From IMG/VR virus record IMGVR_UViG_3300019487_000952, positions 1 through 38,356 of that record: 38,356 nt of DNA; one strand, given 5' to 3'. Under the pieces are notes generated by a model. The model was not told the DNA's origin. It was given only the letters and a program-made list of their open reading frames with translations, and searched no databases. Within the stretch, counting starts at the first letter, position 1; each line of letters begins with the position of its first letter. Below, piece after piece: positions 407 to 38,095 of the stretch. This stretch comes from a virus. The translations under genes and the position numbers were made by a program.

Positions 407-3400
407 GTGTCTCTTGAGTTCGCCCATGGCGCGATTCAGTGGCTCTCGGCTGATGGCGTAAGCACCACCTACACGATCAGCGGACTGTCGTTCCAACCCA
501 AGGCGATCAGGTTCTATTGGGTCGGGCTTCAGTCAGCCAGCGATGCCGCGTCCGAAGCCGTAGACGAGCGACGCGGAGTCGGCTTCGCGGTCAGCACATC
601 CTCGAGGCGTGCGATCGGCACGTTCTCGCAGGACACCGCGAGCACGTCGAACTGTGGGGCCGCTGCACGTAACGACTGCTGCGTCTGCACCACCAACGGC
701 GCCGGCGCGTCCGACGGCCGACTCGATCTGAATGCCATCAACAGCGATGGCTTCCAGATGATCGTGGATGAAGCCGCTCCCGCGAACATCACCGTGTTCT
801 GGGAGGCGTGGGGCGGGTCCGATATCTCAGTGGCGGTGATCGGCGACATCGACGAGCCCGCCGCCACCGGCAATCAGGACTACACGGTAACCGGGTTTGT
901 AGCTGGAGCTACAGATCAGGTCGTGATGTTCGCCGGCTGTCAGTCCACCGCCGCGCTCAACACGGACGCGGCGACCGACAGCGGCCTGTGCGTCGGGTTT
1001 GCCAGCAGCGGCAGCGCGAGCGACAACGTCGTGATCGCCGGCAATTCCGACGACGCCTCGGCCGCGATGGACACGGACCTGTACGGCCTGTCCGGTGAAT
1101 GCCTGGCTCAAATCGTTGTTGCCGGGGGCAATCCTAATGCCCGCGCCCAGCTGACGCAGTTCAACACCGACGGCTTCAGGCTCAACTGGATCGCGCGTGG
1201 CCTGACCAACCGCCGGTCTGTGTTCCTCGCGATCAAGGGAGGGCAGTGGCGGGCTGGTGAGTTCACGATCAATCTAGGCACTGTCGGAAACACCGCGACA
1301 GTCAGCGGCCTGCCCTTTGCGCCGAAGGGCGTGTCGATCATCAGTGCAGGTGTCGCCGAGTCGACCGCCGGCACGTCGAGCACGAACGACAGGATGCTCT
1401 TCGGCAGCGGTTCGTCGACCTCGTCGCGGCGAGCCATGGGCATTCTGGACGAGAATGCCACGGCCAGCAGTGCCTGCGAGATCGACACCTGCATCGAGTA
1501 CGACGCGGTGATGGCTTCTCCCAGCACCGCCGGCGCGTTGCTCGCCGCCGTCGACATCGACGCGGTGAACTCCGACGGCATGCGGTTCATCGTGGACGTA
1601 GCCGTCACGGGGACGCCGTGGGTCGGCTATCTGATGTTCGGCGATGCGCCGCTGGAGTTCGGCATCGGCGATCCGTGGGACTGGGGCGCCGACGACGACC
1701 TCGGACCCGGATCGCCGTACCCGTCCGGCTACCAGCAGGCCGACGGCGCGCCGAACACGCACCAGCTCGACTGGCGCTGGGACGATGATGCGAGCGACGA
1801 TCAGTTCCTGATCGAGGCCACCGCGCAGTCGCAGCCGGTCGAGGACTTCGTGCGCTCGTCCGAGGTCGAGCTGCTGTTCGACCAGGCCGAGCTGTACGAC
1901 GACCCGGTCATCGACCTTGCCGAGGCGATGTCGCCGGTCCAGGCGCAGGCGCCGCCGGCCGAGGATCAGCCAGAATTCACTTGGCCATCGTGGGACGAGG
2001 CCGACGACGACACCCACGAGATCGCCGTCTCGTCAGATCCGCGCGGCGATGCGCCCGCTCCGGACACAGGCACCTTTGAGGATGCCTGGCCGTGGGACGA
2101 GAACGCGGCCGAGGACGAGTCGCCCTCTACTGAGTTAGCGCAGGACGACGAAGCGGCCGCGCTCGAGCGCGATGCCGCGTGGCCGGAAGAGGCCCTCGAC
2201 GAGCTGTGGGCCGAGGAGTCTGCGCCGGTCGTCGCCGATGCGAGCGCGCCCGAGCAGCAGGCGATCGCCGACGGCTGGGACTGGCCGAACGAGGACACGA
2301 GCCTCGAAGGCCCGTTCCCGGGCGGGTATCAGCAGAGCGACGGCGAGCAGGTCCGGATTGAGGACACGCTCCTCGACGACGAGCTCGCCGACGACTGGTG
2401 GACCGAGCAACCCGTAGCCGACGGCGCCGCGCCGGCAGAGGCGCAGCCGCCCGATGACGCGTGGGACTGGACCGGCCAGGCGCTCGAGGCAGAGCTTGCA
2501 CTGGAGCACTCCCCGGTCGGCGCCGATGCCGCGCCGGAGCCGCCATCGCAGCCGTTCGACGACTTCGCGCTGTTCGATGTCGAGTTCGCGCCGGTCGCGG
2601 TCTTCGAGGTCTACCAGCAGGCTGACGCTGATCCGCAGGCCGCGGACACGGCGTGGGATTGGGACACGCTCGCCGTCGATGACTGGTGGGCGGAGCAGGC
2701 AGCAGTTCTTGCCGCCGATGGCGAGCCGGTCAGGCGCGACGAACCGTGGGACTGGACCGAGATCGCGGCGGACGAACTCGCCGACGATTCGGCACCGGTT
2801 CGCGCCGATGCAGCACCTGCGGACGGATTGCCGCCGTCTGATGGTTGGGATTGGACCGACAGCGCCCTCGAGGCCGAGGCCGCCGAGGAACATGCGCCGG
2901 TCGTTGCCGATGCCTCGCCGCAACCGCTGCCAGCGTTCGAATCCATCGACGAGCTCGCCGAGGACGACTGGTCCGGAGAATCCGTACCGGTCGGCGCCGA
3001 TGCCGCGCCGGAAGCCGGACAGCCATCGGCTGATGCCTGGCCCTGGTTCGAGGAGTCCGTCGACGACCGTGTCGATTCGGACGAAGTCGTTGCCGTCGCA
3101 GAGGCTCCGGCACAGCCGCTCGAGCCCGAGTTCGCGCAGGAATGGCTCGAAGACGAGCCGGTGCTCGAATCGGCGCCGGTGGCCGAGAGCGCAGCCGCGC
3201 CCGACGACGTTTGGCCGTGGTTCGACGATCTCGCGGTCGACGACCCGGCCCAGGATGCCGGGACCGGGGAGAACTTCCCGGATCCGCTGCTCAACGTCGA
3301 GGACGCCTGGCCGTGGTTCGAGGAGATCGGCCTCGACGAGTGGCAGCACGAGCACCGCCTGCCGGAGTTCGAGATCAGGGAAAGTGCCGCCACCCGGCGG

Positions 3401-3487
3401 CTGGTTGTGGCCGGTCAGGACCGGCGCTTCGCCGTGAAAGGCAATGATCGCGTGCTGATCGTCGAGGGCGAGCAACGGAGGTACTGA
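407..3487 (+). CDS. Large acidic Trp/Asp-rich protein with triplicated N-terminal domain
   Basis: GTG start at 407, 1026 residues. Residues about 3-145, 158-280 and 283-420 are three diverged copies of one beta-rich domain. Shared marks are SGLxFxPK, STSSRRAxG, NSDGxxxIVD in copies 1 and 3, and NTDGFRLNWIARG in copy 2. Residues about 421-1000 are low complexity and very acidic, with recurring DAWPWFEE, WDWT, DDWW and APVxADAAP blocks and repeated GYQQxDG. The last 30 residues form short repeats of the type RxxVxGxDR. A neighbouring fibre-adaptor-like gene follows with a TGATG junction. A virion surface or appendage role is inferred. The acidic part is unlike any fold I can name. Confidence 0.75.
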   Translation: MSLEFAHGAIQWLSADGVSTTYTISGLSFQPKAIRFYWVGLQSASDAASEAVDERRGVGFAVSTSSRRAIGTFSQDTASTSNCGAAARNDCCVCTTNGAGASDGRLDLNAINSDGFQMIVDEAAPANITVFWEAWGGSDISVAVIGDIDEPAATGNQDYTVTGFVAGATDQVVMFAGCQSTAALNTDAATDSGLCVGFASSGSASDNVVIAGNSDDASAAMDTDLYGLSGECLAQIVVAGGNPNARAQLTQFNTDGFRLNWIARGLTNRRSVFLAIKGGQWRAGEFTINLGTVGNTATVSGLPFAPKGVSIISAGVAESTAGTSSTNDRMLFGSGSSTSSRRAMGILDENATASSACEIDTCIEYDAVMASPSTAGALLAAVDIDAVNSDGMRFIVDVAVTGTPWVGYLMFGDAPLEFGIGDPWDWGADDDLGPGSPYPSGYQQADGAPNTHQLDWRWDDDASDDQFLIEATAQSQPVEDFVRSSEVELLFDQAELYDDPVIDLAEAMSPVQAQAPPAEDQPEFTWPSWDEADDDTHEIAVSSDPRGDAPAPDTGTFEDAWPWDENAAEDESPSTELAQDDEAAALERDAAWPEEALDELWAEESAPVVADASAPEQQAIADGWDWPNEDTSLEGPFPGGYQQSDGEQVRIEDTLLDDELADDWWTEQPVADGAAPAEAQPPDDAWDWTGQALEAELALEHSPVGADAAPEPPSQPFDDFALFDVEFAPVAVFEVYQQADADPQAADTAWDWDTLAVDDWWAEQAAVLAADGEPVRRDEPWDWTEIAADELADDSAPVRADAAPADGLPPSDGWDWTDSALEAEAAEEHAPVVADASPQPLPAFESIDELAEDDWSGESVPVGADAAPEAGQPSADAWPWFEESVDDRVDSDEVVAVAEAPAQPLEPEFAQEWLEDEPVLESAPVAESAAAPDDVWPWFDDLAVDDPAQDAGTGENFPDPLLNVEDAWPWFEEIGLDEWQHEHRLPEFEIRESAATRRLVVAGQDRRFAVKGNDRVLIVEGEQRRY

Positions 3488-4502: not shown

Positions 4503-5274
4503 TAAGGCTGCGGATCTCGACTACACGTTGGTCGTGCCTTCGCGCCGGCGTGTCCACAACATGCCGGTCATCCGCGAGCTGCTCCCGACGGCGCTAGTCT
4601 GCGTCGACGAGCGAGAGGTCAAGGAGTACCTGACCGAGGTTCCGGAGGGCAAGCTGCTCGTGCATCCGCCGCTCGACGGGGTTGCGAGGGTGATGAACTG
4701 GATGCTGGATGCCGTCAAGACCCCGATTTTTATCGAGATCGACGACGACTTCGCCGGTGTTCGTGTGAATGTCGGCACCAGGCGCTTCATCACGGATCCG
4801 GTGGAGATTCTCAACATTATCGAGAACGCCTGCCGCGCCACCCAGGATCTCGGGCTGACGGCTTTCACCTTCGCGCACTCACAGCACACGGTCTTCAACC
4901 GCGCCGACATCTGGCCGGTCAGACCGGTACAGCAATGCGATAACTGCTTCGGGGTGATGGGGGCAGCGCGCTATCGGAAATACGACGAGGGCCTGCCTGG
5001 ACGGGCAGCTGTGGACTGGACGCTGCGCACGTTGCTAGAGGATCGGTGCCTATATGTGGACATGCGTTTCAGGTTCGACTGCGGCGAAATCTTCAGTGGC
5101 GCCGGCGGGAACGTGGGCTTGGTCACCACCGATCAATTCGTCGCCACGTCGCGCAAGCTACGCAAGCGGTGGGGCAAACACCTGAACACGGAGGCTCCAG
5201 GGAGCCAGAAGCGACCGCACGTGTCGCCACTGCGGCTACAGGTCTCTCGCTGGAACAACAAGGCGCAGCGCTAG
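4492..5274 (+). CDS. TET-associated-type glycosyltransferase (TAGT-like)
   Basis: GTG start at 4492 inside the ParB-like gene; 260 residues. The order LVVPSRRRVHNMP (about 12-24), CVDEREVKEYL, VMNWMLDAVKTPIFIEIDDDF (GT-A-type Asp triad near residues 83-85), then MRFRFDCGEIFSGAGGNVGLV (about 183-203) matches my recollection of the TET/JBP-associated glycosyltransferases described by Iyer and colleagues. Those are thought to add sugars to oxidised bases in phage DNA. No TET/JBP dioxygenase is visible here, so the acceptor is unknown. The stop TAG overlaps the opposing gene's stop in the palindrome CTAG at 5271-5274. A GT-A-like fold is likely; DNA as the acceptor is inferred. Confidence 0.72.
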   Translation: MGIDKAADLDYTLVVPSRRRVHNMPVIRELLPTALVCVDEREVKEYLTEVPEGKLLVHPPLDGVARVMNWMLDAVKTPIFIEIDDDFAGVRVNVGTRRFITDPVEILNIIENACRATQDLGLTAFTFAHSQHTVFNRADIWPVRPVQQCDNCFGVMGAARYRKYDEGLPGRAAVDWTLRTLLEDRCLYVDMRFRFDCGEIFSGAGGNVGLVTTDQFVATSRKLRKRWGKHLNTEAPGSQKRPHVSPLRLQVSRWNNKAQR

Positions 5275-5603
5275 AGAGAGCGCGATCCGGTTTTCTGCTT
5301 CGGCGTCCAGGAGACGGCGTGGCCGCGAACCCACTTCGTTTTCTCGTGCCACGTGCCGACTTCGGCTAGGTAGTCGTTCAACTTCTGGAGCGCCGTGTTG
5401 ACCTCGGCCACAGCGTCCGGATTTTTATGGTCACAGCACAGCGCCCAAGGCGGGATGATGATCTCCTTGGACTTGCTGCCATCGCTCCAATCGACCGAGC
5501 CGTAGAAGTGCCAGGACGCGACACCGTCTTCGGTGTCATGGGCGATGCTGGTCAGGGCCGTGATGCGGCCCCCGTGCTTGTGCATCAGAAAGGCGGGTTG
5601 CAT
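5271..5603 (-). CDS. Hypothetical phage protein
   Basis: Leftward gene of 110 residues, 12 bases after the stop of the gene at 5616-6221 and so in the same operon. The protein begins MQPAFLMHKHGGRITALTS, then SWHFYGSVDWSDGS and a Cys-Cys-His patch (ALCCDHKN), ending basic. It reads as a small soluble protein, and no family is recognised. Its stop overlaps the stop of the convergent glycosyltransferase gene, so the two transcripts collide here. No clear T-rich terminator is present, only a weak GCGCT/AGCGC hairpin at 5268-5283. Confidence 0.7.
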   Translation of the reverse strand: MQPAFLMHKHGGRITALTSIAHDTEDGVASWHFYGSVDWSDGSKSKEIIIPPWALCCDHKNPDAVAEVNTALQKLNDYLAEVGTWHEKTKWVRGHAVSWTPKQKTGSRSL

Positions 5604-5615
5604 AAAAGGAAGTCC

Positions 5616-6221
5616 TCAAGAATCCTGTTCCTCCAGGTCGAGCGTGGACTGCTTCGTCTTGGCCAGTTGATCCTTGAGAGCCCACAGCCGATACGCCTCG
5701 TCTTCGTAGGCGTCCTTCGTCGGCTGCGCCGGCACCAGCTGCGTGCCGATCTCGCGAAAGTGATCTAGGCCGCGGCCGAGGCGCTTGCCCTGCGCGGTGT
5801 GCTTGTCATACGCCCAATCCGGGATCTCTGGCACCTTGTTTTCGAGCAGGTTGGCCAAGCCAACCGCCGTGTGGAAGTGATCGCCCTCGCGGCTCTTCTG
5901 CGCGCGGCACATGAGACGGATCGCGTTACCGATCGCCATCCGGACTTTGCCGAGTTTCATCGGGTCGGAGTCGTGCCAATCCTTCGCCTGCTGGCAGACG
6001 ATGTAAACGAAAGGCACGATCTGAGGGTTCGCCTGGGTGTCGATGTCCTCATGCGAAATCACTTGCAGGCGCTTGCACACCATCGAGAGGAAGGCTTTGG
6101 AGCTGTGCATCAGCTCTACGGCACATTCCATCGCCTCGCGCTCTTGGCCGCGACGGATGTGTTTTTGCATAGCCGAGCAGAGTACAAGAGGTTGCTGGCC
6201 GTGTAGGGTCTTCGGCATCAT
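5616..6221 (-). CDS. MgsA/RarA C-terminal-like protein without the ATPase domain
   Basis: Protein of 201 residues. MQKHIRRGQEREAMECAVEL, then KRLQVISHEDID, then VRMAIGNAIRLMCRAQKSR and DKHTAQGKRLGRGLDHF follow the helical C-terminal (tetramerisation) part of MgsA/RarA-type AAA+ proteins. There the pattern is an IRRGDxxxAL start, a RLxxIASEDIG box and a HTxxGKxxGRG box. No Walker A or B motif exists, so it cannot be an active ATPase by itself. Stand-alone copies occur in phages and may act in replication or repair, or bind the host RarA; this is inference. AGGAG lies 5' of the ATG at 6221. The promoter/operator at 6255-6283 probably drives it. Confidence 0.65.
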   Translation of the reverse strand: MMPKTLHGQQPLVLCSAMQKHIRRGQEREAMECAVELMHSSKAFLSMVCKRLQVISHEDIDTQANPQIVPFVYIVCQQAKDWHDSDPMKLGKVRMAIGNAIRLMCRAQKSREGDHFHTAVGLANLLENKVPEIPDWAYDKHTAQGKRLGRGLDHFREIGTQLVPAQPTKDAYEDEAYRLWALKDQLAKTKQSTLDLEEQDS

Positions 6222-6254
6222 CGGTTTAGTTTCTCCTGTTCATGTGCTACGCGG

Positions 6255-6283
6255 GTGATAGCTACCCTGTAGCTAGTGCTGAA
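6255..6283 (-). promoter_or_regulatory. Candidate leftward promoter of the 6221 operon
   Basis: Read on the minus strand: TTCAGC (-35, complement of 6278-6283), a 17-base spacer, then TATCAC (-10, complement of 6255-6260). The boxes are weak (3/6 and 4/6 matches to the sigma-70 consensus). Support comes from aligning it with the much stronger promoter at 35950-35978, which has the same spacing and the same palindrome in the spacer. Start of transcription would be about 25 bases before the ribosome site of the gene at 6221. Confidence 0.5.
6259..6275. promoter_or_regulatory. Operator-like palindrome TAGCTAC-N3-GTAGCTA
   Basis: A perfect inverted repeat with 7-base arms and a 3-base centre, placed over the spacer and part of the -10 of the leftward promoter. 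A near copy with one arm mismatch lies at 35954-35970 in the same position relative to another leftward promoter. A repressor-binding site is the simplest reading. The repressor is not identified, and the HTH protein at 31048 is one candidate. Confidence 0.6.
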
Positions 6284-6369
6284 TATGCCAGAGGTCGTGA
6301 TGGATATCAAGCAATTCATTGACTTACGCAAGTGATTGAGGGGAAGGCCAAAAAGCATTCTCTGGTCAG

Positions 6370-8363: not shown

Positions 8364-10691
8364 ATGGCTGAAAAACCGCAGCGCAAACCGATTGCCAGGG
8401 AACTTATTGACCGGCTTGTCACTGGCGTGCGTTACATCGTCACCGGTGCTGGACCCGAAACGTGGTTCGGACCTGGACAGCCGCCGCACCCGCAAAGCGA
8501 GATCACCGATGGCCGCATCTTCGACTACCCTGTTGGGTATAACCAGCGGCAAGTGCCTCGCGGTGAGGAAGCTGTCTCATTCGCGCAAATGCGGGCACTC
8601 GCGGATGCGTACGACCTGCTGCGGGTGGTAATCGAGACTCGCAAGGATCAGGTTGTCAAGTTTGACTGGAACATCGTCCCCAAGGATCCGAAGAAGAAGC
8701 GCGACGCCAGATGCGAGGAAGTTGACTCCTTCCTCAGCTTCCCGGACGGAGAGCACACTTGGCAGCAGTGGCTACGAGCGATCATCGAGGACATGCTGGT
8801 CATCGACGCCGCCACGATTCACCCGCGCCTGACATACGGGAACCGGCCGTACAAGTTTGAAATCTTCGATGGCTCGACTATCAAGCGCGCCATAGACTCG
8901 CGTGGTGCGACACCGGAGCCACCGGATACGGCTTATCAGCAGATCCTGCATGGGGTGCCGGCGGTCAATTTCAGCAGCCATGAGCTGATCTATGCGCCGC
9001 GTAACGTCCGCGCGCACAAGCTCTACGGCTACAGCCCGGTGGAGCAGATCATCATGACGGTGAACATTGCGCTTCGCCGGCAGATGCACCAGCTTCAGTA
9101 TTACACCGACGGCTCCACGCCCGACCTGATCTTCCAAGTTCCGGACAACTGGAAACCCGACCAGGTCAAACAGTTCAAGCTCTGGTGGGACGAGATTCTG
9201 CATGGCAACACTGCCGCACGGCGCGGCACGATGTTCGTGCCTTCTGGCGCTACTCCGGTGAACACCAAGGATCAGGTGCTCAAGGACGAATACGACGAAT
9301 GGCTTGCCCGCATCGTGTGCTACTGCTTCAGCTTGTCGTCGCAGCCTTTTGTGAAGCAGATGAACAGGGCAACTGCAGAAGCCGCCAAGGAAGCGGCCAC
9401 CGAGGACGGACTCGTACCGCTGCTGGAGTGGGTCAAAGATTTGATTGACCTGATCGTGTGGCGCTACTTCGGCTACACCGAACTGACTTTCGAGTGGAAG
9501 TTCGAGTCCGACGTCGATGCCAACATGCAGTCGCAGATCGACGATCGCGACATCCGCAACGGATCGATCAGTATCGACGAAGTGCGTCAGCGCCGAGGTC
9601 TGGACCCGCTAGGCGTGGGACCTGCCATCATTACGGCCACCGGTCTGATCCCTGTAGTGGAGTCCTACGAGGCGGAGCTCGAGGCGCTTCTCAATCCGCC
9701 CGAGCCCGTAGTCGTGAACGGCTCTGTAGTTGGTCCTGATGGCAAGCCGGTACAGCAACCGCCGGCGGATGAAGATGACGACCAACCGCCGGGTGACGAT
9801 GCCGGCGATGCGGACAAGATCCGCAAGCGAAAAAAAAAAGTTAGACGCCTATCTCGTCGGCGACCGGCAACAGTTCGCGGCGTCCGAAATCTGACCAGGG
9901 TTCTAGTCCTGCTACTGAAGAGCAAGGCTTCCGAGATCGCACGGCAGGCTACAGCCAGCGTATCTGAGAGGCTCGAGAAGGGTCTGTCCAAAGCGATTGA
10001 CGATGACGTCAGATACGTGCAGGGCGAGCTCGACTTTGAGAGCTGGGCGGAGTCCGCCGACGACGTGGGCGATGCGCTCAGGCCGGTCGCCAGGGATGGC
10101 GGACAGCAGGCGCTCGCGCAGGTCGGCATAGAGGACGACGAGATCACGGACGTCGTCAACCGGGACGCGGTCATCTTCGCCGCGAGCCGCGGTGCGGAGC
10201 TGGTCGGCAAGAAGTTGGTGGACGGCGAGCTCGTGGACAACCCAAACCGGCAGTACGCGATCACGGAGTCGACGCGCGACATGCTGCGCGGGACGATCAA
10301 GCAGGCAATGGAGGAAGGATGGTCGAACGATCGCCTGGCAGACGAGATCGTGTCGCACTACGCCTTCTCGACCAAGCGCGCCATGAACATTGCGCGGACC
10401 GAGACAGCTTTTGCCGATGTCGCTGGGAACATGATCGCCTACCGGGAAAGCGGAGTGGTCGAGCGAAAGCAGTGGATCCTGGGTAGCGAACACGATCTCG
10501 ACGACGTGTGCAACGACAACGCCGCAGTGGGGCCGATACCAATCGATCAGCCGTTCCCGTCAGGGGATGACGGACCGCCGGCCCATCCAGGATGCGTCTG
10601 TGACGTCATTCCCATCGTTGCAGAAAGCAGCACGAAATCGCTGGAGCATTTGATTACCAAACTTCGTCAGGCAATGGAGGCCGAGACATGA
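8364..10691 (+). CDS. Portal protein fused to a Mu F-like head morphogenesis domain
   Basis: Protein of 775 residues. Residues 1 to about 455 are a portal: an early aromatic segment, DLLRVVIETRKDQVVKFDWNI near residue 85, PVEQIIMTVNIALRRQMHQL, FVKQMNRATAEAA, and QRRGLDPLGVG. A proline/aspartate linker (455-492) ends at a run of ten A (9830-9839). Residues about 570-775 are a Mu F-like minor capsid domain (ITESTRDMLRGTIKQAMEEGWS, AMNIARTETAFADVAGNM, and a final PAHPGCVCDVIPI box). Such fusions are known in phages. The portal ring carries DNA in and out, and the MuF part helps head assembly or is ejected. The -1 and +1 frames after the A run hit stops at once or after 17 codons, so slippage would give portal alone. 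Confidence 0.9.
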   Translation: MAEKPQRKPIARELIDRLVTGVRYIVTGAGPETWFGPGQPPHPQSEITDGRIFDYPVGYNQRQVPRGEEAVSFAQMRALADAYDLLRVVIETRKDQVVKFDWNIVPKDPKKKRDARCEEVDSFLSFPDGEHTWQQWLRAIIEDMLVIDAATIHPRLTYGNRPYKFEIFDGSTIKRAIDSRGATPEPPDTAYQQILHGVPAVNFSSHELIYAPRNVRAHKLYGYSPVEQIIMTVNIALRRQMHQLQYYTDGSTPDLIFQVPDNWKPDQVKQFKLWWDEILHGNTAARRGTMFVPSGATPVNTKDQVLKDEYDEWLARIVCYCFSLSSQPFVKQMNRATAEAAKEAATEDGLVPLLEWVKDLIDLIVWRYFGYTELTFEWKFESDVDANMQSQIDDRDIRNGSISIDEVRQRRGLDPLGVGPAIITATGLIPVVESYEAELEALLNPPEPVVVNGSVVGPDGKPVQQPPADEDDDQPPGDDAGDADKIRKRKKKVRRLSRRRPATVRGVRNLTRVLVLLLKSKASEIARQATASVSERLEKGLSKAIDDDVRYVQGELDFESWAESADDVGDALRPVARDGGQQALAQVGIEDDEITDVVNRDAVIFAASRGAELVGKKLVDGELVDNPNRQYAITESTRDMLRGTIKQAMEEGWSNDRLADEIVSHYAFSTKRAMNIARTETAFADVAGNMIAYRESGVVERKQWILGSEHDLDDVCNDNAAVGPIPIDQPFPSGDDGPPAHPGCVCDVIPIVAESSTKSLEHLITKLRQAMEAET
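9830..9839 (+). other. A10 homopolymer at the portal/MuF domain border (possible slippage site)
   Basis: Ten consecutive A in otherwise GC-rich DNA, coding the end of Arg and three Lys (codons 489-492 of the fusion). After the run the -1 frame reads AGT TAG, a stop at 9842-9844, giving a 493-residue product, the normal size of a separate portal. The +1 frame stops at 9892-9894. Runs of nine or more A are known sites of polymerase slippage. The zero frame is open and family-like on both sides. Confidence 0.5.
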
Positions 10692-31047: not shown

Positions 31048-31404
31048 CTAGGTGCCTCTCCGCCGTCTCGTGGCCTTCTTCGGGCTTGGTCCGCGTGGTG
31101 TTGCTTCCCCGAGTTCCAGCCGGAGGAGTCGGAGCATATTGTTAGGCATCGGCCTATAGCTCCGCGCATTCTCCGATACTAGCCAGCTTCGCAGGGTCTG
31201 CGGGGCGACCTCGAGCAATCCCGCCGTGCCGACCTGCGACATACCGTGCTTGGCCATCAATGCACGCAGATGCTCGGCATTGGATTTCATGGCCGGCCAG
31301 TCTACCATCTGACTGTCCAGCCACAAAGTAGCCGCTGTCACGGCTTTTGCCTCAGTGGAACGCACCAAAGAGACAGGTGATCGGCGCGGCGCGAATTGTG
31401 TCAT
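31048..31404 (-). CDS. Helix-turn-helix (XRE-like) regulator
   Basis: Protein of 118 residues, start at 31404 in an ATGA overlap with the gene upstream. Residues about 42-75 (AEHLRALMAKHGMSQVGTAG, then LLEVAPQTLRSWLVSENA) form an XRE-like HTH in which SQVGTAGLLEV is helix 2 and the turn, and APQTLRSWL the recognition helix. A basic tail (KKATRRRRGT) follows. Methionine 39 is a possible later start. It is the last gene of the leftward unit. It could bind the TAGCTAC operators, but nothing in the sequence proves this. Confidence 0.72.
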   Translation of the reverse strand: MTQFAPRRSPVSLVRSTEAKAVTAATLWLDSQMVDWPAMKSNAEHLRALMAKHGMSQVGTAGLLEVAPQTLRSWLVSENARSYRPMPNNMLRLLRLELGEATPRGPSPKKATRRRRGT

Positions 31405-31805
31405 CGCGGCTCGCTTAATGCGACATCGATCCGCGCCGGCAGCTCGCGTAGCAGCGTCACGCCATTGTTAACCGATGGAGCGTAGACGAGCAGCGTGATG
31501 CGCCGGCCGAGGTCTGCTGCAGGAAGCGCGCGATCGCACTGTCTGACATCGATTGTGAGATAGGCTGGCGAGGGCGTGCCGTCTTCGAGCACGACATGCG
31601 CCACCCCGATGCTCGGCGCGCCAACGATCTGCACGCTGGCGTGCGTAACGCGTGGATCACCAACGTCCGGCCAGCCGTGCGGCGCGAGCAGCCGCACCGC
31701 ATCGGCATTGACGCTCAGATAGACGAGGCCCTGCGCGGCATGCTCCGTGGACCAGTAGTCCGTGGAGACGACGCGCGGGCCGTTATTGGCGATGTGTATC
31801 ATCAC
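31401..31805 (-). CDS. Hypothetical early-region protein
   Basis: Protein of 134 residues on the minus strand; its stop overlaps the start of the HTH gene. The fold looks mixed alpha/beta: VYLSVNADAVRLLAPHGWPDV, HASVQIVGAPSIGVAHVVLED, YLTIDVRQCDRALPA, then RITLLVYAP. No family is recognised. A purine-rich GAGGAGGTAGAG lies just before the ATG. Confidence 0.68.
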   Translation of the reverse strand: MMIHIANNGPRVVSTDYWSTEHAAQGLVYLSVNADAVRLLAPHGWPDVGDPRVTHASVQIVGAPSIGVAHVVLEDGTPSPAYLTIDVRQCDRALPAADLGRRITLLVYAPSVNNGVTLLRELPARIDVALSEPR

Positions 31806-31877
31806 TCTACCTCCTCAGTGCACCTTGGCGAGTCGGTCGGCGTCGCCGACCTGGCGGCGGGAGAGGGTGACGGGCAT

Positions 31878-32150
31878 TTAGCCTGCCGTAGCAGTCATGT
31901 TGATCGTCGCGGCCAAGTCGCCGAGCAGATCAGCAGCGATCCGCCGCGCGTCGCTCAGGCTCACATCGGTGAGTTGCTGACGCACGTTCGATGCGCGCGC
32001 ATCGCCGGTCGGCACATGGACACGCACGTCTCCGGGTGTGCGCAGCAGATGCAGAGTCTCCTCGACGTAGTAAGCTGCGCAGGCGATGTCCTCGCGCAGA
32101 GTATAGATATAAGCCGCATCTGTGTTTTTCGAGACGCGCTCCAATCTCAT
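31878..32150 (-). CDS. C-terminal part of a frame-broken early gene, or separate 90-residue protein
   Basis: Minus-strand frame of 90 residues with ATG at 32150 but no good ribosome site. SKNTDAAYIYTLREDIACAA and ADLLGDLAATINMTATAG look like real protein. Upstream coding lies in another frame (31930-32634), whose reading becomes Arg-rich and unnatural once this frame begins. A +1 shift near the A5 run (complement of 32123-32127) would join both parts into one 251-residue product. Either the gene is frameshifted or it starts here on its own. Confidence 0.55.
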   Translation of the reverse strand: MRLERVSKNTDAAYIYTLREDIACAAYYVEETLHLLRTPGDVRVHVPTGDARASNVRQQLTDVSLSDARRIAADLLGDLAATINMTATAG

Positions 32151-32634
32151 GCTTGAGGGCTTGCTGGCTCGCGATGGACGCCTCTCTGCGAGTCTCGGCG
32201 AGAGCGCGATAGTGACCGCGCCATCCTCCGGACGTGTAGTCGCGGTGAGCGGCGACTCTGGAGTCGCGCGAGTCGTGCTGCACTTCGTGGACGGGATGTG
32301 GCACCGCGCCGCGCAGCTCGTCTGCGGCCTCGCGCAGCGATTCGGCGTGTCGGCGCTCAGCCTGCGCTTCAGTCAGGGCTTCCTCCGGCCTGTATGGCCG
32401 GCAGGAAGTCAGGTACTCGGATGCGCGGCGCAGATAGCGCTGTGCATCCGACAAAGCGACCTGAGCATAGGCAGCTCTGGACCGGTCTATCCCAGCAGCC
32501 GCGAGAATTGCGAGCGCTGCATGATCAGTGCCGCCAAGCCTCTTGCGAGCGGCGCTAGCGAGCCGACCGGCAGCAATAATAGCTGCGCGTTCGGTCAGAG
32601 TGATCGCGGGGGTCTTATCTGCTACGGATTCCAT
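31930..32634 (-). CDS. Early-region protein with a probable frame break
   Basis: Start at 32634 with ribosome site AAGGAGAG. The first roughly 170 residues look genuine: ITLTERAAIIAAGRLASAA, ALSDAQRYLRRASEYLTS, EALTEAQAERRHAESLREA, SIASQQALKHEIGARLEK. They are helical and charged. From about 32125 on, this frame turns into Arg-rich sequence (RGHRLRSLLRRGDSASAAHT) typical of non-coding frames, while the +1 frame (31878-32150) looks coding. The break may be a mutation, a reading error or recoding. Function is unknown. Confidence 0.5.
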   Translation of the reverse strand: MESVADKTPAITLTERAAIIAAGRLASAARKRLGGTDHAALAILAAAGIDRSRAAYAQVALSDAQRYLRRASEYLTSCRPYRPEEALTEAQAERRHAESLREAADELRGAVPHPVHEVQHDSRDSRVAAHRDYTSGGWRGHYRALAETRREASIASQQALKHEIGARLEKHRCGLYLYSARGHRLRSLLRRGDSASAAHTRRRACPCADRRCARIERASATHRCEPERRAADRC

Positions 32635-32650
32635 CGTGCTCTCCTTCTGT

Positions 32651-32676
32651 GTGGCCCCTAGCCGGGAGCCTGCGGT
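32651..32676 (-). repeat. Leader repeat, copy 1, with hairpin
   Basis: A 26-base direct repeat that, on the minus strand, precedes the ribosome site of the 32634 gene. In the leftward RNA it folds GGCUCC with GGGGCC around a 6-base loop, with one G-U pair. The plus-strand RNA would have a C-A mismatch, so the element is built for the leftward message. Confidence 0.65.
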
Positions 32677-32725
32677 TGTGCGGGGCGCACATTGGAGCCG
32701 CCCGTGAGCGGCTCGGTCTGCGTCC

Positions 32726-32962
32726 CTACGTCAGGGACGGCAGGCGGACGGGATGGCCGATGTCGTGGAACGTGGCAGACCCCTCGTCGTGCCCGATGGC
32801 GAATTCGATGAATTCCTTGCCATCTGGGCTGTAGAGCATCGCTGGTACGTTGTCGATGTCATCCGGCGGCGGCGGCGCATCCAGGTCTGTTGCCGTCCAC
32901 AAATCAATCGCACTGCCCGTGATGTGTTGCGCGATGTAGCCGAGCGTCGTGTATAGGATCAT
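32726..32962 (-). CDS. Hypothetical acidic early protein
   Basis: Protein of 78 residues; ATG at 32962 preceded by AAGGAGAGACAG, the standard leader of this region. The sequence (ILYTTLGYIAQHITGSAIDL, then DAPPPPDDIDNVPAML, EFIEFAIGHDEGS) is acidic with a proline stretch. No domain is recognised. Small acidic proteins of this kind in early phage regions often bind host enzymes, but that is only a general expectation. Confidence 0.62.
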   Translation of the reverse strand: MILYTTLGYIAQHITGSAIDLWTATDLDAPPPPDDIDNVPAMLYSPDGKEFIEFAIGHDEGSATFHDIGHPVRLPSLT

Positions 32963-32976
32963 CTGTCTCTCCTTCG

Positions 32977-33002
32977 GTGGCCCCTAGCCGGGAGCCTGCG
33001 GT
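32977..33002 (-). repeat. Leader repeat, copy 2, with hairpin
   Basis: Exact second copy of the 26-base leader at 32651-32676, 326 bases away, again just before the ribosome site of a leftward gene (32962). Confidence 0.65.
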
Positions 33003-33045
33003 GTGGGGTCATCCCACTGAGGATTGGCGGGCGGCCAATCGTGGC

Positions 33046-33255
33046 CTAAAGCCGCTCGCGGTGGACTTCGGTCCCCGCCGCGTCCCGTACTACGATGGTC
33101 GGGCCGTAACCGGCATACTGCCACGCCGGGAAAGCGTCCCGCGCGTACTGCTTAGCCTTGCGGATTGTGGTCAAGAGCGCGCCCCTGTGTGTCATCGTCA
33201 CGCCGTCCTGCTGCGGCGTGTACGCGCTGTAGGTGTAGGTCTTGTATCTCATCAT
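33046..33255 (-). CDS. Hypothetical small protein
   Basis: Protein of 69 residues; ATG at 33255 (or 33252) preceded by AAGGAGAGAC. TIRKAKQYARDAFPAWQ and PTIVVRDAAGTEVHRERL suggest a small alpha/beta fold seen in many unnamed phage early proteins. It lies between two unknown genes on the minus strand. Confidence 0.62.
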   Translation of the reverse strand: MMRYKTYTYSAYTPQQDGVTMTHRGALLTTIRKAKQYARDAFPAWQYAGYGPTIVVRDAAGTEVHRERL

Positions 33256-33313
33256 GTCTCTCCTTCGTTGGCTCTATTATGCTCGGTCTGCGTCGGGGGG
33301 CTGTTGCCCCTCC

Positions 33314-33934
33314 CTATGCTTGATAGGGCGTCGCGACCAGCACGTACTCGCGGCCCCGGATCTCTGCCGTTGTGGCAGCACCGTCCACGAAGACGTCGAG
33401 GACGGCATGCTGTTCCGACTCGAAGTAGGTCGAGTCAACGAAGCGCTGCGCACCGTCCTTGTCGTAGTCGACGGCGTAGGCTTCCAGATGGATCGAACAG
33501 CCGTTGATCACCAGCCCGGCCAGGAGACGCGCTCTGGGGTCATCCTCCGGTCCTGATTCTTCCCAAGCCTCTTCCGGCACGTCGATCTTCCCCACCCATC
33601 CGCTGCCGTGGTACGCCGGTTGCTGCGCCAGCCACGCCTTGATCTCGGTATCGGACATCGACCAGCCCTGCAGCAGCGGCAGCTTCGCGATCTTCGCGAA
33701 CTTGAAGCTCTGGTAGTAATGCTGGGCCTTGCCCTCGAAGCCGCTGCCGAAGTAGTCGCAGAGGATCGCGAGCGCCAGCTGGGCCGGCCCGCTGCCGCCA
33801 TAGCCCCAGGAGAAGCCTGTCGGGCTGTGGTTCCTGACGTCCGTGCGCGGCGCCAGCGGGTGATGCGGGACATCGTCCACGTACACGAAAACGATGCCGT
33901 TTCCGTTCTCTCTTGTGCCTCTGTATGTCTTCAT
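33314..33934 (-). CDS. DUF6166-type protein
   Basis: Protein of 206 residues, start at 33934 with AAGGAGTGAGCG upstream. The box NHSPTGFSWGYGGSGPAQLA (residues about 35-54), then LAILCDYFG and YYQSFKFAKIAKLPL with WLAQQPAYHG, matches my memory of the DUF6166 domain. Residues 125-206 are an acidic C-terminal part (EEAWEESGPEDDPRARLL). DUF6166 is found in phages and plasmids, and its function is unknown. The gene is complete. Confidence 0.72.
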   Translation of the reverse strand: MKTYRGTRENGNGIVFVYVDDVPHHPLAPRTDVRNHSPTGFSWGYGGSGPAQLALAILCDYFGSGFEGKAQHYYQSFKFAKIAKLPLLQGWSMSDTEIKAWLAQQPAYHGSGWVGKIDVPEEAWEESGPEDDPRARLLAGLVINGCSIHLEAYAVDYDKDGAQRFVDSTYFESEQHAVLDVFVDGAATTAEIRGREYVLVATPYQA

Positions 33935-34012
33935 CGCTCACTCCTTCTCCAAGTTGCGTCTGACCACAAATGCTGGTCGCATAGCACCCCGGACGGGATG
34001 CTGTACCCAGCT

Positions 34013-34246
34013 TCAGCGCTTTGCGATCACAACAAAGGAACGATACCGAGTGGCGCCGAACATAGCGCCAGGCCCGTTCCCTTCCTCGTCCTGCGACGCG
34101 TAAAGCCTGGTGCCATCGTCGAGGACCATCACGACTGGACGCGCTCCGCGATACGGGACGCTCCAGCCCTCCTGCTGCATCTCGTTCTGTGTCATCGCTC
34201 GCACGTCCACGATGCGCTTGCCTACTACGGTGTGATCCATTTCCAC
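34013..34246 (-). CDS. Hypothetical small protein
   Basis: Protein of 77 residues, start at 34246 with AAAGGAGGCAGTGG upstream. VDVRAMTQNEMQQEGWS, VMVLDDGTRLYASQDEEGNG and GPGAMFG form a pattern met in many unnamed phage and plasmid proteins of this size. It is probably a single small beta domain. No function is known to me. Confidence 0.68.
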   Translation of the reverse strand: MEMDHTVVGKRIVDVRAMTQNEMQQEGWSVPYRGARPVVMVLDDGTRLYASQDEEGNGPGAMFGATRYRSFVVIAKR

Positions 34247-34296
34247 TGCCTCCTTTCACGACTACGTCAAGAGAATCGGGGCGCCATCCTCGATCT

Positions 34297-34638
34297 TCAT
34301 GCGGCCTTCGGCGCTGCCAGCCGGCCGGCCTTCATCGCCCGGTCGAAGTCCTGCAAGAACGCGTCGAGCCCCTCTGCGTACTTCACTTGTCGGAGGAGCT
34401 TCTGCTTGTGTTCGTCGCGGAACTGAATCTCGAAGCGCACGCTCTCCAGCTCGAACGCGAAGTTCACGCACAGGTCAGGGACCGTCGTCGCCGGCTTGCG
34501 CTCCGGGATCAGCCAGAGCCGGCCGGCGCCGGGCTTGATCTGCTGCAGGACGGTGTCGTACTTCTCGCCTTTGGCCATGCTGGCGAGCGTCATCAGGTAG
34601 AAGCGCTCGAGCTCAATCATTCCGCTGTCGCCTGTCAT
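34297..34638 (-). CDS. Hypothetical early protein
   Basis: Start at 34638 is chosen because AAGGAGACTGAC precedes it; an upstream in-frame start at 34722 would run into the preceding gene. The protein has 113 residues. MIELERFYLMTLASMAKGEK and RLWLIPERKPATTVPDLCV are followed by a charged segment (FEIQFRDEHKQKLLRQVKYA). No recognised domain. Confidence 0.65.
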   Translation of the reverse strand: MTGDSGMIELERFYLMTLASMAKGEKYDTVLQQIKPGAGRLWLIPERKPATTVPDLCVNFAFELESVRFEIQFRDEHKQKLLRQVKYAEGLDAFLQDFDRAMKAGRLAAPKAA

Positions 34639-34639
34639 G

Positions 34640-34846
34640 TCAGTCTCCTTGGTCGTAGTGGCCTTCCTCGCGGGCGTAGGCTTCCCAGCCGCAGTCGATG
34701 ATCCTGGCGTTGCGATCAGCATCAGACTGCTGTGGACGCTTCGTGCCCGTGAAGCACGCCTTGCACTTGCCGCTGTGGGCGGCGGCGTACTGCTTTGACG
34801 TCAAGTTCTCGCAGCTCCTGCATTCGATGACGTACGGGTTTCTCAT
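34640..34846 (-). CDS. Small zinc-ribbon-like protein
   Basis: Start at 34846 with GAGGAGATGAC upstream; 68 residues. IECRSCENL (about residues 6-14) and KCKACF (about 26-31) give two CxxC pairs spaced for one zinc ion. A tail with DCGWEAYAREEGHYDQGD follows. It probably binds nucleic acid or protein. The stop lies one base before the next start, so translation is coupled. Confidence 0.7.
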   Translation of the reverse strand: MRNPYVIECRSCENLTSKQYAAAHSGKCKACFTGTKRPQQSDADRNARIIDCGWEAYAREEGHYDQGD

Positions 34847-34878
34847 GTCATCTCCTCTGGTGCGAAGTCCGCACCCCA

Positions 34879-34899
34879 CGGCCCGGGTTCGCCGGGCCG
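34879..34899 (-). terminator. GC-rich hairpin between early genes
   Basis: CGGCCCGG (34879-34886), a 5-base loop, CCGGGCCG (34892-34899), a perfect 8-bp stem 12 bases downstream of the DUF932 stop on the minus strand. There is no T tract, so it may protect the 3' end or pause polymerase rather than end transcription. Confidence 0.5.
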
Positions 34900-34911
34900 C
34901 AGGCTGCTACC

Positions 34912-35901
34912 TCACGCGGCCAGCTTCACGCATTCCGCGAACACGGCTTCCTTGGTCTGCGCACTCTTGCCGAACCAAGAAGAGTCGAGTCTGGTGTCGG
35001 CAGACCGCGACTTGCTGTGATGGTCGTAGAACTCGGTGACTGCGTTGACCAGGCCCCAGGCGGTGCCGCGTGCCGATTCCAGATCGGAACCGATCGCCTT
35101 GCCATGCCAAAGGTCGATCACCTTGCCGACGGTCTGCGACTTGTCGAGGAACTTCTCCGGTTCCATCGCGCGGTCATCGTCGGTCGCGGCGTAGACGCGT
35201 TGCAGAATCTGCGTGGCCTTCCGGTCGTCGAGCTTGATCTTCGCGATCAGCTTCGCGGACTCGATGAAGGCGCTCCACGTGTCGACCGTGATCCCGAGCT
35301 GGTCCTTGACTTTCTCCGGGTCGAAGGTGTCGAAGTGGCAGACCTTCACTTGCTGGCCGTCCTTCACGTTGGAGCCCAGCGCCAATGTGAGAGTGTTCAT
35401 GCAGACCACGCGGACGCTGGTGAAGCGAGCTGTCGTCGCCATCCGACCGTCGCACGCCGTCGCGAGCAACAGATAGCCCTGGACCTTGTCCTGGCTGGCG
35501 ATCTTGGCTTCCTTGCCGATCTCCGCGAGCGCCCAAATCTTCTGGCCACCGCGCAGGCTGCCGGCGGTGTGCATCGTGAATCCGGCGCCCTTGGTCAGGT
35601 CATTGAAGAAGCCGAGGATCGCCTCGGGCTGCACTTCCTTGTAGGAATCGGAGACCACGGAGAGCGCATCACCGGTGTCGCTGCGGTAGAGAACGTCACG
35701 ACCGATGCTGGCTTGGCGGAGACCTGTCTCTGCCTGATAGAGGACCGGCGTGCGGAGGATTGACCAATCGAGACCCGCGGCCTTGCGCCACTCCTCGATC
35801 GTGGCGTTGGGGTCGATCTGCTGCCCGAGTTCGTGCCACGGTGTTTTCCCGACGTACGCCATGTTCGCCTTGCCGTTGCTCATGTCGATTTCGTGTGCCA
35901 T
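34912..35901 (-). CDS. DUF932 phage/plasmid-like protein (TIGR03299 type)
   Basis: Protein of 329 residues. AYVGKTPWHELGQQIDPNAT (residues about 15-34), VLYRSDTGDALSVVSDSYKEV (70-90), then ACDGRMATTARFTSVRVVCMNTL (about 149-171) are hallmarks of the DUF932 family. Such proteins occur in early regions of phages and plasmids; their role is not settled. AGGAGTTACCAG precedes the ATG at 35901. A sigma-70-like promoter with an operator lies about 50 bases upstream, so this gene heads a leftward operon. The gene is complete. Confidence 0.87.
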   Translation of the reverse strand: MAHEIDMSNGKANMAYVGKTPWHELGQQIDPNATIEEWRKAAGLDWSILRTPVLYQAETGLRQASIGRDVLYRSDTGDALSVVSDSYKEVQPEAILGFFNDLTKGAGFTMHTAGSLRGGQKIWALAEIGKEAKIASQDKVQGYLLLATACDGRMATTARFTSVRVVCMNTLTLALGSNVKDGQQVKVCHFDTFDPEKVKDQLGITVDTWSAFIESAKLIAKIKLDDRKATQILQRVYAATDDDRAMEPEKFLDKSQTVGKVIDLWHGKAIGSDLESARGTAWGLVNAVTEFYDHHSKSRSADTRLDSSWFGKSAQTKEAVFAECVKLAA

Positions 35902-35949
35902 CTGGTAACTCCTGTCTTCTGTTGGGTTGATCGGCTAACTGCAGTGTCC

Positions 35950-35978
35950 ACTCTAGCTACATTGTGGCTAGTTGTCAA
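35950..35978 (-). promoter_or_regulatory. Strong leftward promoter before the DUF932 operon
   Basis: On the minus strand: TTGACA (complement of 35973-35978, perfect -35), a 17-base spacer, then TAGAGT (complement of 35950-35955, 4/6 match for -10). A TAGCTAC palindrome fills the spacer. The expected start of transcription lies about 40 bases before the ATG at 35901. This is the best sigma-70 promoter seen in the window. Confidence 0.8.
35954..35970. promoter_or_regulatory. Operator-like palindrome TAGCTAC-N3-GTGGCTA
   Basis: Same 7-3-7 design as the site at 6259-6275, with one mismatch between the arms. It lies between the -35 and -10 boxes, so a bound protein would block polymerase. Confidence 0.65.
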
Positions 35979-36047
35979 TAGAAAGGTAACGTAATCATGG
36001 GCTTGTAAATTCGTTGAAAATCCAGCCCTTCGAGGGGTCCGGGGCCT

Positions 36048-36911
36048 TTACTTCGGCTCCGGCAGGGCTCCTGGGTAATGCTTGGCGATAATCCGGTTCA
36101 TCTGGTCGACCAGGTCCGGACGCTTGAAGGTGACGTGCCCGGCGCCGTTCTTGTATTGCTTGATCCGCACGTACTCGTTCTCCACGTCAGGGTCGGTCGT
36201 GTTCGCGAACATGTGCAACAGCTTGTAGGTTCCCTGCCGGTGATCCGGCTCGGCCTTGCCGTCGAGGACATGGAAGACGCGCATCAGATCGTCCAGCTCG
36301 TCGCAGTGGCGCATGTTGGGCCAGCCGAGTGATGTCCCTGGACCGGTCACGGCCGAGCGGATGTAGGTCAGGACAATCCGCTTGCCGAACTTCTGCGGCA
36401 GGTTTGTCTTGTAGTCCCAGGCCAGCCCCTTGAAGACGTTGATTACACCGCGCTCGAATATCTCGCCTCTGGAGTCGTGCAGCATCCGGAACGTGCCGCG
36501 GATGTTGTCGACCGTGAGCGGCGGCATATCCTTGCCTTCGATTTGCTTGTCCCACTGTTCGCGCGCCTTCGCGTCCATCAGGCTGCGCATCCCGGACTCG
36601 CCCATCAGATATTGCCAGCCGGCTCCGTCCACTTCCTTGCGCATGTGTTCGAGCACTTCGGCGCTGCGGTCCATGTAGGCGCCGTTGATCCGCTGTTCGA
36701 CGCTGCGCGAGTAGTGCGACGGTGACGTGCAGAACGTAGGGAACCCGACGTTCGCCCTCGCCGCGATCGCTGCGGTCTCGTTGATCATGTCGATGATCTG
36801 TGCCAGACGCTCCAACACGGCGTCGCGCTGATTCACCAGGTTCTCGATGCTGACGCTGGGCACGACCTGCGTGCCCGCGCTTTCGTCTTTCAGGATTTCG
36901 GGAGCGTTCAT
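36048..36911 (-). CDS. DUF4942-type protein
   Basis: Start at 36911 is chosen for the AAAGGAG site; a start at 36944 has none. The protein has 287 residues. A helical front (LVNQRDAVLERLAQIIDMI) precedes NIRGTFRMLHDSRGEIFERG (about 137-156), VFKGLAWDYKTNLPQKFGKR (about 160-179) and a closing GHVTFKRPDLVDQMNRIIA. These are the marks of the DUF4942 family as I remember it. Members occur in phages and mobile elements, at times beside DNA methylases. The function is not known. No promoter is visible directly upstream. Confidence 0.78.
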   Translation of the reverse strand: MNAPEILKDESAGTQVVPSVSIENLVNQRDAVLERLAQIIDMINETAAIAARANVGFPTFCTSPSHYSRSVEQRINGAYMDRSAEVLEHMRKEVDGAGWQYLMGESGMRSLMDAKAREQWDKQIEGKDMPPLTVDNIRGTFRMLHDSRGEIFERGVINVFKGLAWDYKTNLPQKFGKRIVLTYIRSAVTGPGTSLGWPNMRHCDELDDLMRVFHVLDGKAEPDHRQGTYKLLHMFANTTDPDVENEYVRIKQYKNGAGHVTFKRPDLVDQMNRIIAKHYPGALPEPK

Positions 36912-36981
36912 TGGGGCTGCTCCTTTCTCAAATCGTCCTTCCATACCGGTCGCTGCGCTGTTCTACGCGCTTGGGTGATGG

Positions 36982-37389
36982 TCAGGTATTGGGTGACTCG
37001 TTCATAGCAGGGCGAGGCTCAGCGCCGGTCGCTGGGAAAATCGCGGCCTCGGCGTATTGAGCAGCGATCAGATAGCTTCCACGCTTGAGGTTCACCACCG
37101 ATTTGAGGGCGGCAAACAGTCGCTCGGCTGACTCTCTGTGGTCGAAGTCCGCGACATGCTCTACGCCGCCGCTGGAGCAGTGCCAGTAGACGGCAAACTT
37201 CCACTCGAGCGCTTCGCCGCTGGCAACCGCCTCTTGAGCAGCGGTCTCGGAAGCCTTGGAGTCGTCGCCCAGGGACTCGACATAGACCCCGCCACGGAAG
37301 TCGTCGCAAACGACGACGATCGACAGCTCGACGTCGTCATAGAGGGCGCCGGGAATCGTCTCGTACTTGTCTCGCAGAATGAGGTTCAT
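36982..37389 (-). CDS. Hypothetical early protein
   Basis: Start at 37389, in an ATGA overlap with the 25-residue gene upstream (37386-37463), so an extended start at 37434 is rejected. The protein has 135 residues: ALYDDVELSIVVVCDDFRGG, EWKFAVYWHCSSGGVEHV, and a helix AERLFAALKSVVNL. It is a mixed alpha/beta protein with no recognised family. Confidence 0.68.
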   Translation of the reverse strand: MNLILRDKYETIPGALYDDVELSIVVVCDDFRGGVYVESLGDDSKASETAAQEAVASGEALEWKFAVYWHCSSGGVEHVADFDHRESAERLFAALKSVVNLKRGSYLIAAQYAEAAIFPATGAEPRPAMNESPNT

Positions 37390-37463
37390 GGCATCACCTT
37401 CGCCGGCGGGATCACTCGAACTCTGTTGCCCCACGGGTAACGGCCATTGGTGAAGTAGCTCAT
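37386..37463 (-). CDS. Tiny 25-residue gene coupled by ATGA overlaps at both ends
   Basis: On the minus strand ATG at 37463 to TGA at 37386-37388, reading MSYFTNGRYPWGNRVRVIPP followed by AKVMP. Its stop overlaps the start of the 37389 gene. Its own start overlaps the stop that the upstream gene would have if shifted by -1. The fit at both ends makes a chance ORF less likely. Function is unknown. Confidence 0.55.
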   Translation of the reverse strand: MSYFTNGRYPWGNRVRVIPPAKVMP

Positions 37464-37782
37464 GTCGGCCTCACGGGCAGCTTGAACACGGCGCCGTCGG
37501 GGATCGTGTCGTCTTTCTTCGCGGCCTCGATCGCTTCCTCGGCGCTGTCAAACGTGCCGAAGTCGCCCGGATAACTGCGTAGAAAAAGCGGCCGACGTTC
37601 TTGCCTCTGAACGCGCGCGCATGGCGGTAGTATTTGCCGAGCGCATCGACGGCCTGTCGAGCGTCCTTCGCGCTGGCGATCAGACCGTCATACACGGTCT
37701 GCCACGAGGCGCCGGCTTCGGCGTTCGTGAGTCGCGCGCCGGCGTCCGGATGATTGCTGACCTGCAGCGTGTACCAACTCAT
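37460..37782 (-). CDS. Early protein read through a -1 frameshift
   Basis: ATG at 37782 overlaps the stop of the gene upstream (ATGA). The first frame reads MSWYTLQVSNHPDAGARLTN, ASWQTVYDGLIASAKDARQA and ends after VGRFF in a basic, unnatural tail (stop at 37471). From the CTTTTTC run (minus strand, complement of 37582-37588) the -1 frame reads LRSYPGDFGTFDSAEEAIEA, then AKKDDTIPDGAVFKLPVRPT, and stops at 37460 in an ATGA with the next small gene. The joined 107-residue product is well formed. This may be programmed shifting, a real mutation or a missing base in the sequence. Confidence 0.6.
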
Positions 37783-38081
37783 GACTTCGCCTCCTCTTTG
37801 TGGAAGCCAGCTTCCTTCGCGGCTTCGACGCCGGCCTGGGCCATCGAGGCGGCGAAGGTCGCTTCGGCGACCTTGCCCATGCCCGGGATCGAGAGCGCGT
37901 CGAACGCATCGTTAAGCGCCTCAGGCAGCTTGATCTTGATCCAGGACCGCACGCACTCTGCGAGTGCCTTCGGGTCGGCATGCAGACTGTGGGTCCGCAG
38001 GTACTGCAGCGCGCTGTTGGCGGCGATCCGCTCGGCCAGCTGAGCAACGGCCGCGGCGTTGTTAGCGTCGAAGTCAGTCAT
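37779..38081 (-). CDS. Hypothetical early helical protein
   Basis: Start at 38081 is chosen for GGAGGGTCACACC upstream; the longer start at 38138 lacks a ribosome site and overlaps the previous gene. The protein has 100 residues: NNAAAVAQLAERIAANSALQ, ECVRSWIKIKLPEALNDAFD, KVAEATFAASMAQAGVEAAK. It is mainly helical and Ala-rich. No family is recognised. The next gene starts in an ATGA overlap at 37782. Confidence 0.68.
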   Translation of the reverse strand: MTDFDANNAAAVAQLAERIAANSALQYLRTHSLHADPKALAECVRSWIKIKLPEALNDAFDALSIPGMGKVAEATFAASMAQAGVEAAKEAGFHKEEAKS

Positions 38082-38095
38082 GGTGTGACCCTCCT

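Follow-up and report, generated by a model that had tools for sequence, protein, structure and literature searches.

Two solitary palindromes of RelB/DinJ antitoxin-operator type as candidate operators of two leftward phage genes

Introduction

Two leftward genes that lie far apart in the genome of an uncultured phage are each preceded by the same palindromic sequence, which raises the question of what kind of protein would recognise both sites and under which circumstances the two genes would be expressed. The sequence under study, IMG/VR virus record IMGVR_UViG_3300019487_000952, is linear, comprises 38,356 bases, was analysed over its whole length (the window), and is probably a fragment of a phage genome. 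The source is an uncultured phage of alphaproteobacterial type. Its portal, capsid, and tail proteins resemble those of phages and prophages of Alphaproteobacteria and Betaproteobacteria, as well as of two Brevundimonas phages; the closest capsid protein is 72% identical, such that no near relative exists among the sequences compared. The late genes run rightward, the leftward genes occupy 31048-38356, including a DUF932 gene, and 5271-6221, and no replication genes were recognised in the window among the families searched.

The first gene downstream of site 2 is this DUF932 gene (34912-35901, minus strand; PF06067/TIGR03299, 329 amino acids). Downstream of site 1 lies a gene for 201 amino acids (5616-6221, minus strand), whose product weakly resembles the C-terminal domain of MgsA/RarA (PF12002, a match below the cut-off) and shares 55% identity with a Bradyrhizobium plasmid protein; a second leftward open reading frame (5271-5603, minus strand, 110 amino acids, no family) is possibly co-transcribed with it. 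Elsewhere in the window, a perfect 26-bp direct repeat, GTGGCCCCTAGCCGGGAGCCTGCGGT, is found at 32651-32676 and 32977-33002, just upstream of two leftward genes, where both copies adjoin similar ribosome-binding sites and are read as a duplicated leader. A protein of 1026 amino acids (407-3487) has no family matches; its second half is strongly acidic and contains degenerate repeats, among them APVxADAAP and DxWDW.

The two sites and their promoters

On the minus strand, site 1 (6283-6255) reads TTCAGC-ACTAGCTACAGGGTAGC-TATCAC and site 2 (35978-35950) reads TTGACA-ACTAGCCACAATGTAGC-TAGAGT, with 17 bases between the hexamers in both cases and the block ACTAGC-x-ACA-xx-GTAGCTA in common, exactly as a preliminary description of this DNA had put it. 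The same description assigned a 7-3-7 palindrome to both sites. This is accurate for the candidate operator at site 1 (6259-6275, TAGCTACCCTGTAGCTA on the plus strand), which is a perfect palindrome, whereas the candidate operator at site 2 (35954-35970, TAGCTACATTGTGGCTA on the plus strand) pairs at six of seven arm positions, or may be read as a 9-1-9 palindrome with one mismatch at 35953-35971. An exact search for TAGCTACNNNGTRGCTA returned these two places of the window and no third copy. If any palindrome form is allowed to pair with any other in intergenic sequence, an equally good pair arises in 3 of 400 intergenic dinucleotide shuffles.

At site 2 the candidate operator fills the spacer of the putative DUF932 promoter, TTGACA-N17-TAGAGT (35950-35978, minus strand), which matches the sigma-70 consensus at 10 of 12 positions. 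An identical architecture had been proposed for site 1, with TTCAGC-N17-TATCAC (6255-6283, minus strand) as the promoter; here the claim does not hold in the same way, as these hexamers are weak (7 of 12, a score that comes partly from the shared palindrome) and were not reported by the promoter scan. A candidate with an extended -10 element, TTGATA-N17-CATATT (6282-6310, minus strand; 9 of 12, with TG one base before the -10), is the better of the two predicted promoters and, if it is the one in use, would place the palindrome of site 1 at about +1 to +17 instead of in the spacer. An operator over the core promoter is clear at site 2, while site 1 has two alternative promoters. That one regulator might set two expression levels, as the preliminary description suggested, involves a promoter assignment at site 1 that is doubtful. 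The gap that holds site 1 (6222-6369) is divergent, and an operator at this position could affect rightward transcription too; on its plus strand it contains an 11-codon frame, MDIKQFIDLRK, ahead of a small-terminase-like gene.

Assignment of the palindrome to a class of antitoxins

A survey of 397 Hyphomicrobiales genomes returned the exact pattern TAGCTACNNNGTRGCTA three times, twice upstream of RelB/DinJ antitoxin genes. In 25 other genomes there was no exact copy, and of the four places with one mismatch, one stands directly ahead of a RelB/DinJ antitoxin gene, with a YafQ toxin gene coming next. DinJ homologues were then gathered by protein similarity, and the upstream regions of 30 loci were read. 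The core GCYACAWTGTRGC, at a level of at least 11 of 13 positions, is present upstream of 12 of the 14 antitoxins whose beta strand reads V/I-R-A-R and of none of the 16 others (Fisher p = 1e-6), which have HVRV, QTRI, QARI and the like instead; shuffling of the upstream regions gives this level in 0.6% of cases. The operator upstream of dinJ at locus L228 is identical to site 2 at 16 of 17 positions. A phage record outside the set from which the rule was built, MT836447, carries a dinJ gene (VVRARID) with GAGCTACAATGTAGCTC upstream (28.3 bits), and E. coli dinJ (FVRARID) has an upstream sequence, GAGCTACAATTCAAGCT, that is related yet different. The likeness extends to the promoter, since the chromosomal dinJ promoter of L240, TTGACT-TG-TAGCTACATTGTAGC-TACATT, and the DUF932 promoter, TTGACA-AC-TAGCCACAATGTAGC-TAGAGT, share one register, that is, a TTGAC -35 element, two bases, the operator within the spacer, and the -10 element.

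Ribbon-helix-helix proteins read DNA by means of a beta strand. The R13A variant of DinJ from L. paracasei loses DNA binding (PMC9592637). Given this loss and the coupling of the RAR strand to GCYACAWTGTRGC, the palindrome is very probably the autoregulatory operator of the V/I-RAR class of RelB/DinJ antitoxins. The coupling provides a usable specificity rule for RelB/DinJ antitoxins, independent of the phage. Antitoxins with other beta strands, HVRV/HIRI (L230, L232, L237, L244) and QTRI/QARI (L247, L250-L256), have other upstream sequences, namely GATACnTTGTAT-like ones and GCATTACATT, a hint of a general residue-to-operator code.

In order to score the window, a matrix was made from nine operators that had been found by protein homology, with pattern-found loci left out. 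Over the 38 kb, site 2 ranks first (25.4 bits) and site 1 second (15.7 bits), followed by a third place at 8.7 bits; in direct reading, site 2 agrees with the core GCYACAWTGTRGC at 13 of 13 positions and site 1 at 11 of 13, the differences from the consensus being two inner bases. A set of G+C-rich phage relatives (2.07 Mb) contains one place at the score of site 1 and none at that of site 2. Shuffling of the intergenic sequence gave two matches as good as site 1 in none of 3000 trials, and shuffling of the whole window in 1 of 400. One should bear in mind that the dinJ family was reached via a pattern derived from the window, so that some circularity remains in the link, though the operators in the matrix were found through their proteins. 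The sites, their matrix match, the operator-RAR coupling, and the register shared with a dinJ promoter can all be read directly in the sequence.

Distribution among phages

On the preliminary description's own terms, a lack of conservation of the palindromes in related phages would count against it, and taken literally this lack was observed: 160 capsid relatives (2.38 Mb) are devoid of the palindrome within one mismatch, but they contain neither of the two genes, so this comparison does not bear on the two promoters themselves. Nor does the palindrome precede any of the DUF932 homologues compared, 18 of them viral and 9 from plasmids or phages, or the Bradyrhizobium plasmid homologue of the MgsA_C-like gene. 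The hallmark of a classical phage repressor regulon, an operator conserved in kin and present upstream of the repressor gene, was not found.

The exact sequence TAGCYACAATGTRGCTA was located in 48 viral stretches, which removal of near-copies reduces to 21. It lies outside open reading frames of at least 100 codons in 13 of these 21, whereas a stop-matched control palindrome does so in 2 of 11 (p = 0.028; other thresholds gave 0.13 and 0.06). A first control palindrome, ATCGYCAAATTGRCGAT, had given a stronger intergenic contrast (p about 3e-4) and was set aside as unfair because the operator motif itself contains stop codons; with the stop-matched control the contrast weakened to p = 0.03 to 0.13. 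No dinJ gene was found near the viral TAGCYACAATGTRGCTA loci, and this distribution suggests that solitary operators of putative DinJ type recur in phages. The intergenic exact copies include L259, L261, L263, L284 and kin, and L257, L258, L262, L274, and L280; in the L259 group the copy stands just upstream of a gene for 177 amino acids starting MTTIVARQYADKVVIGSD. L274, a viral contig of 62 kb, also carries at about 8600-8645 some four head-to-tail copies of an 11-mer, TAGCTACATTG, one of them diverged, which resemble an iteron or a multi-site operator.

Other leads were rejected. The pattern ACTAGCNACANNGTRGCTA was found in 27 stretches of viral contigs, nearly all within coding sequence. 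The one match in a G+C-rich contig with tail genes in common with the window (L042) runs across the stop codon of an open reading frame for a large tail protein, and was discarded as a coding coincidence. TAGCTA-N5-TAGCTA repeats in a Methylobacterium tarhaniae contig (L221; positions 5172, 7994, 9159, 9814, and 9825) stand around a parA-like gene, which has a small gene after it, and a parDE-like pair; having a different centre and reaching only 10-11 bits on the DinJ matrix, they were kept apart from the DinJ operator. Their 11-bp spacing is the same, and they may serve in partition or as antitoxin sites.

The putative regulator

The sites share the palindrome by which bacterial DinJ-YafQ systems repress themselves, so a toxin-antitoxin (TA) repressor that is absent from this fragment may control both genes. 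A profile of the DinJ set, run against the window in six frames, detected no DinJ-like reading frame (best E 2.5), and the window proteins scanned gave no toxin family matches. Both constituents of a DinJ-YafQ locus, a RelB/DinJ gene (PF04221) directly downstream of the operator and a YafQ/RelE toxin gene after it, are missing here, their place being taken by the DUF932 and MgsA_C-like genes. The regulator may therefore come from the host, from a co-resident element, or from a missing part of the phage. On the evidence of the motif, we consider it fairly probable that both sites are operators of the V/I-RAR RelB/DinJ type and that the repressor of both genes is an antitoxin of this class. That such a protein actually binds, that it represses rather than activates, and what its identity is are matters that we infer. 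A shared operator read by a single regulator, as the preliminary description envisaged, is well supported, though by a route that it did not foresee.

The mechanism proposed follows the analogy with relBE and dinJ-yafQ (PMC4803016, PMC9592637). The antitoxin, alone or together with its toxin, would occupy each 17-bp site as adjacent dimers and exclude RNA polymerase, in the spacer between the -35 and -10 elements at DUF932, and at or around the transcript start of the MgsA_C-like gene. When the labile antitoxin declines, both genes would be released. A further step, which we put forward tentatively and hold to be rather unlikely as it stands, is that the phage uses a RelB/DinJ-class antitoxin of its host as repressor and sensor in one, with the two accessory genes being switched on only when the antitoxin is degraded. 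If this were true, degradation would signify that a TA system of the host has been triggered or that protein synthesis has been shut off, and other phages with the solitary operator in intergenic regions, for example L257, L259, L262, L274, and L280, may behave likewise.

Several other readings have to be weighed. The regulator could be encoded in a missing part of the phage, as a solitary ribbon-helix-helix repressor or a phage-borne dinJ-yafQ, and the two sites would then belong to an ordinary phage regulon. The linear, fragmentary record without recognised replication genes among the families searched agrees with this, and a few phage records do carry dinJ, one of them with a near-consensus operator; against it, no DinJ was found in 41 phage records, capsid relatives and operator-bearing contigs included, which is a weak negative, as the protein search lacked a positive control and most of these records are fragments as well. 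This explanation strikes us as possible, if on the unlikely side.

It is distinctly less probable that the DUF932 promoter is a relic, captured from a TA operon by recombination, and that the match at site 1 is partly due to chance. Such an origin would account for the complete TA-type promoter-operator at site 2 and for the weaker score of site 1, but the outer palindrome of site 1 is perfect and lies within a leftward promoter region, of which there are few, and two intergenic matches of this quality are rare in shuffled sequence.

An accidental likeness of two intergenic palindromes, or transcribed hairpins with no protein partner, would fit the missing conservation among relatives and the level of about 1% in the naive palindrome-pair test. 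The first two ranks on the matrix, their absence from the intergenic shuffles, the RAR coupling, the rarity of the motif in chromosomes (three exact copies in 397 genomes), and the more frequent intergenic placement of the exact viral copies than of the stop-matched control, with a p value that varies by threshold, all speak against it, and we regard it as improbable. Finally, the HTH protein of 31048-31404 (minus strand), suggested as a candidate in the preliminary description, or another HTH-type phage repressor, is a highly improbable ligand of both palindromes: the protein lies in the same leftward block as DUF932, but nothing observed connects it with the sites, its HTH match is weak, the gap upstream of its own operon (31048-31805; gap 31806-31929) is devoid of the palindrome, and the motif belongs to the ribbon-helix-helix class.

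Comparison with known systems

The operator and the class of regulator, that is, type II TA autoregulation, are already known. In the DinJ-YafQ systems an inverted repeat covers the -35 element in L. paracasei and the -10 element in E. coli (PMC9592637), a placement over a sigma-70 promoter that the window clearly shares at site 2; with the DinJ-YafQ operators of Hyphomicrobiales it has the core GCYACAWTGTRGC and, presumably, the RelB/DinJ family in common. The difference is that the operators of the window precede a DUF932 gene and an MgsA_C-like gene, with no antitoxin or toxin gene after them. No phage promoter controlled by an antitoxin or by LexA came up in literature searches with those exact terms, and operators of antitoxin type ahead of non-TA genes of a phage, where the fragment contains no antitoxin gene, were not found described. 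Type II antitoxins are known mainly for repressing the operons that encode them. If the two sites are indeed solitary operators of this type, phage gene control would have the TA state as one of its inputs, and the uncharacterised DUF932 protein and the stand-alone MgsA_C-like protein would gain a testable setting.

TA pairs that affect phage production are PfiA/PfiT of the Pseudomonas prophage Pf4 (PMC7264888) and PrrT/A (PMC9241795). Pf4 encodes PfiAT itself, and its authors found nothing like the palindrome at other places in that genome (PMC7264888), whereas in the window two solitary operators precede phage genes that are not TA genes, and the fragment has no antitoxin gene. E. coli DinJ is described as acting on other loci as well, cspE/RpoS (cited in PMC4996492). 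What this has in common with the present proposal is an antitoxin that acts in trans, at a palindrome that is not part of the operon encoding it; the target there is a host chromosomal gene, here they are phage genes. Some phage genes are under the control of the host LexA repressor. With these the proposed arrangement would share a stress repressor of the host as the switch, a LexA box in the one case and an operator of ribbon-helix-helix antitoxin type in the other.
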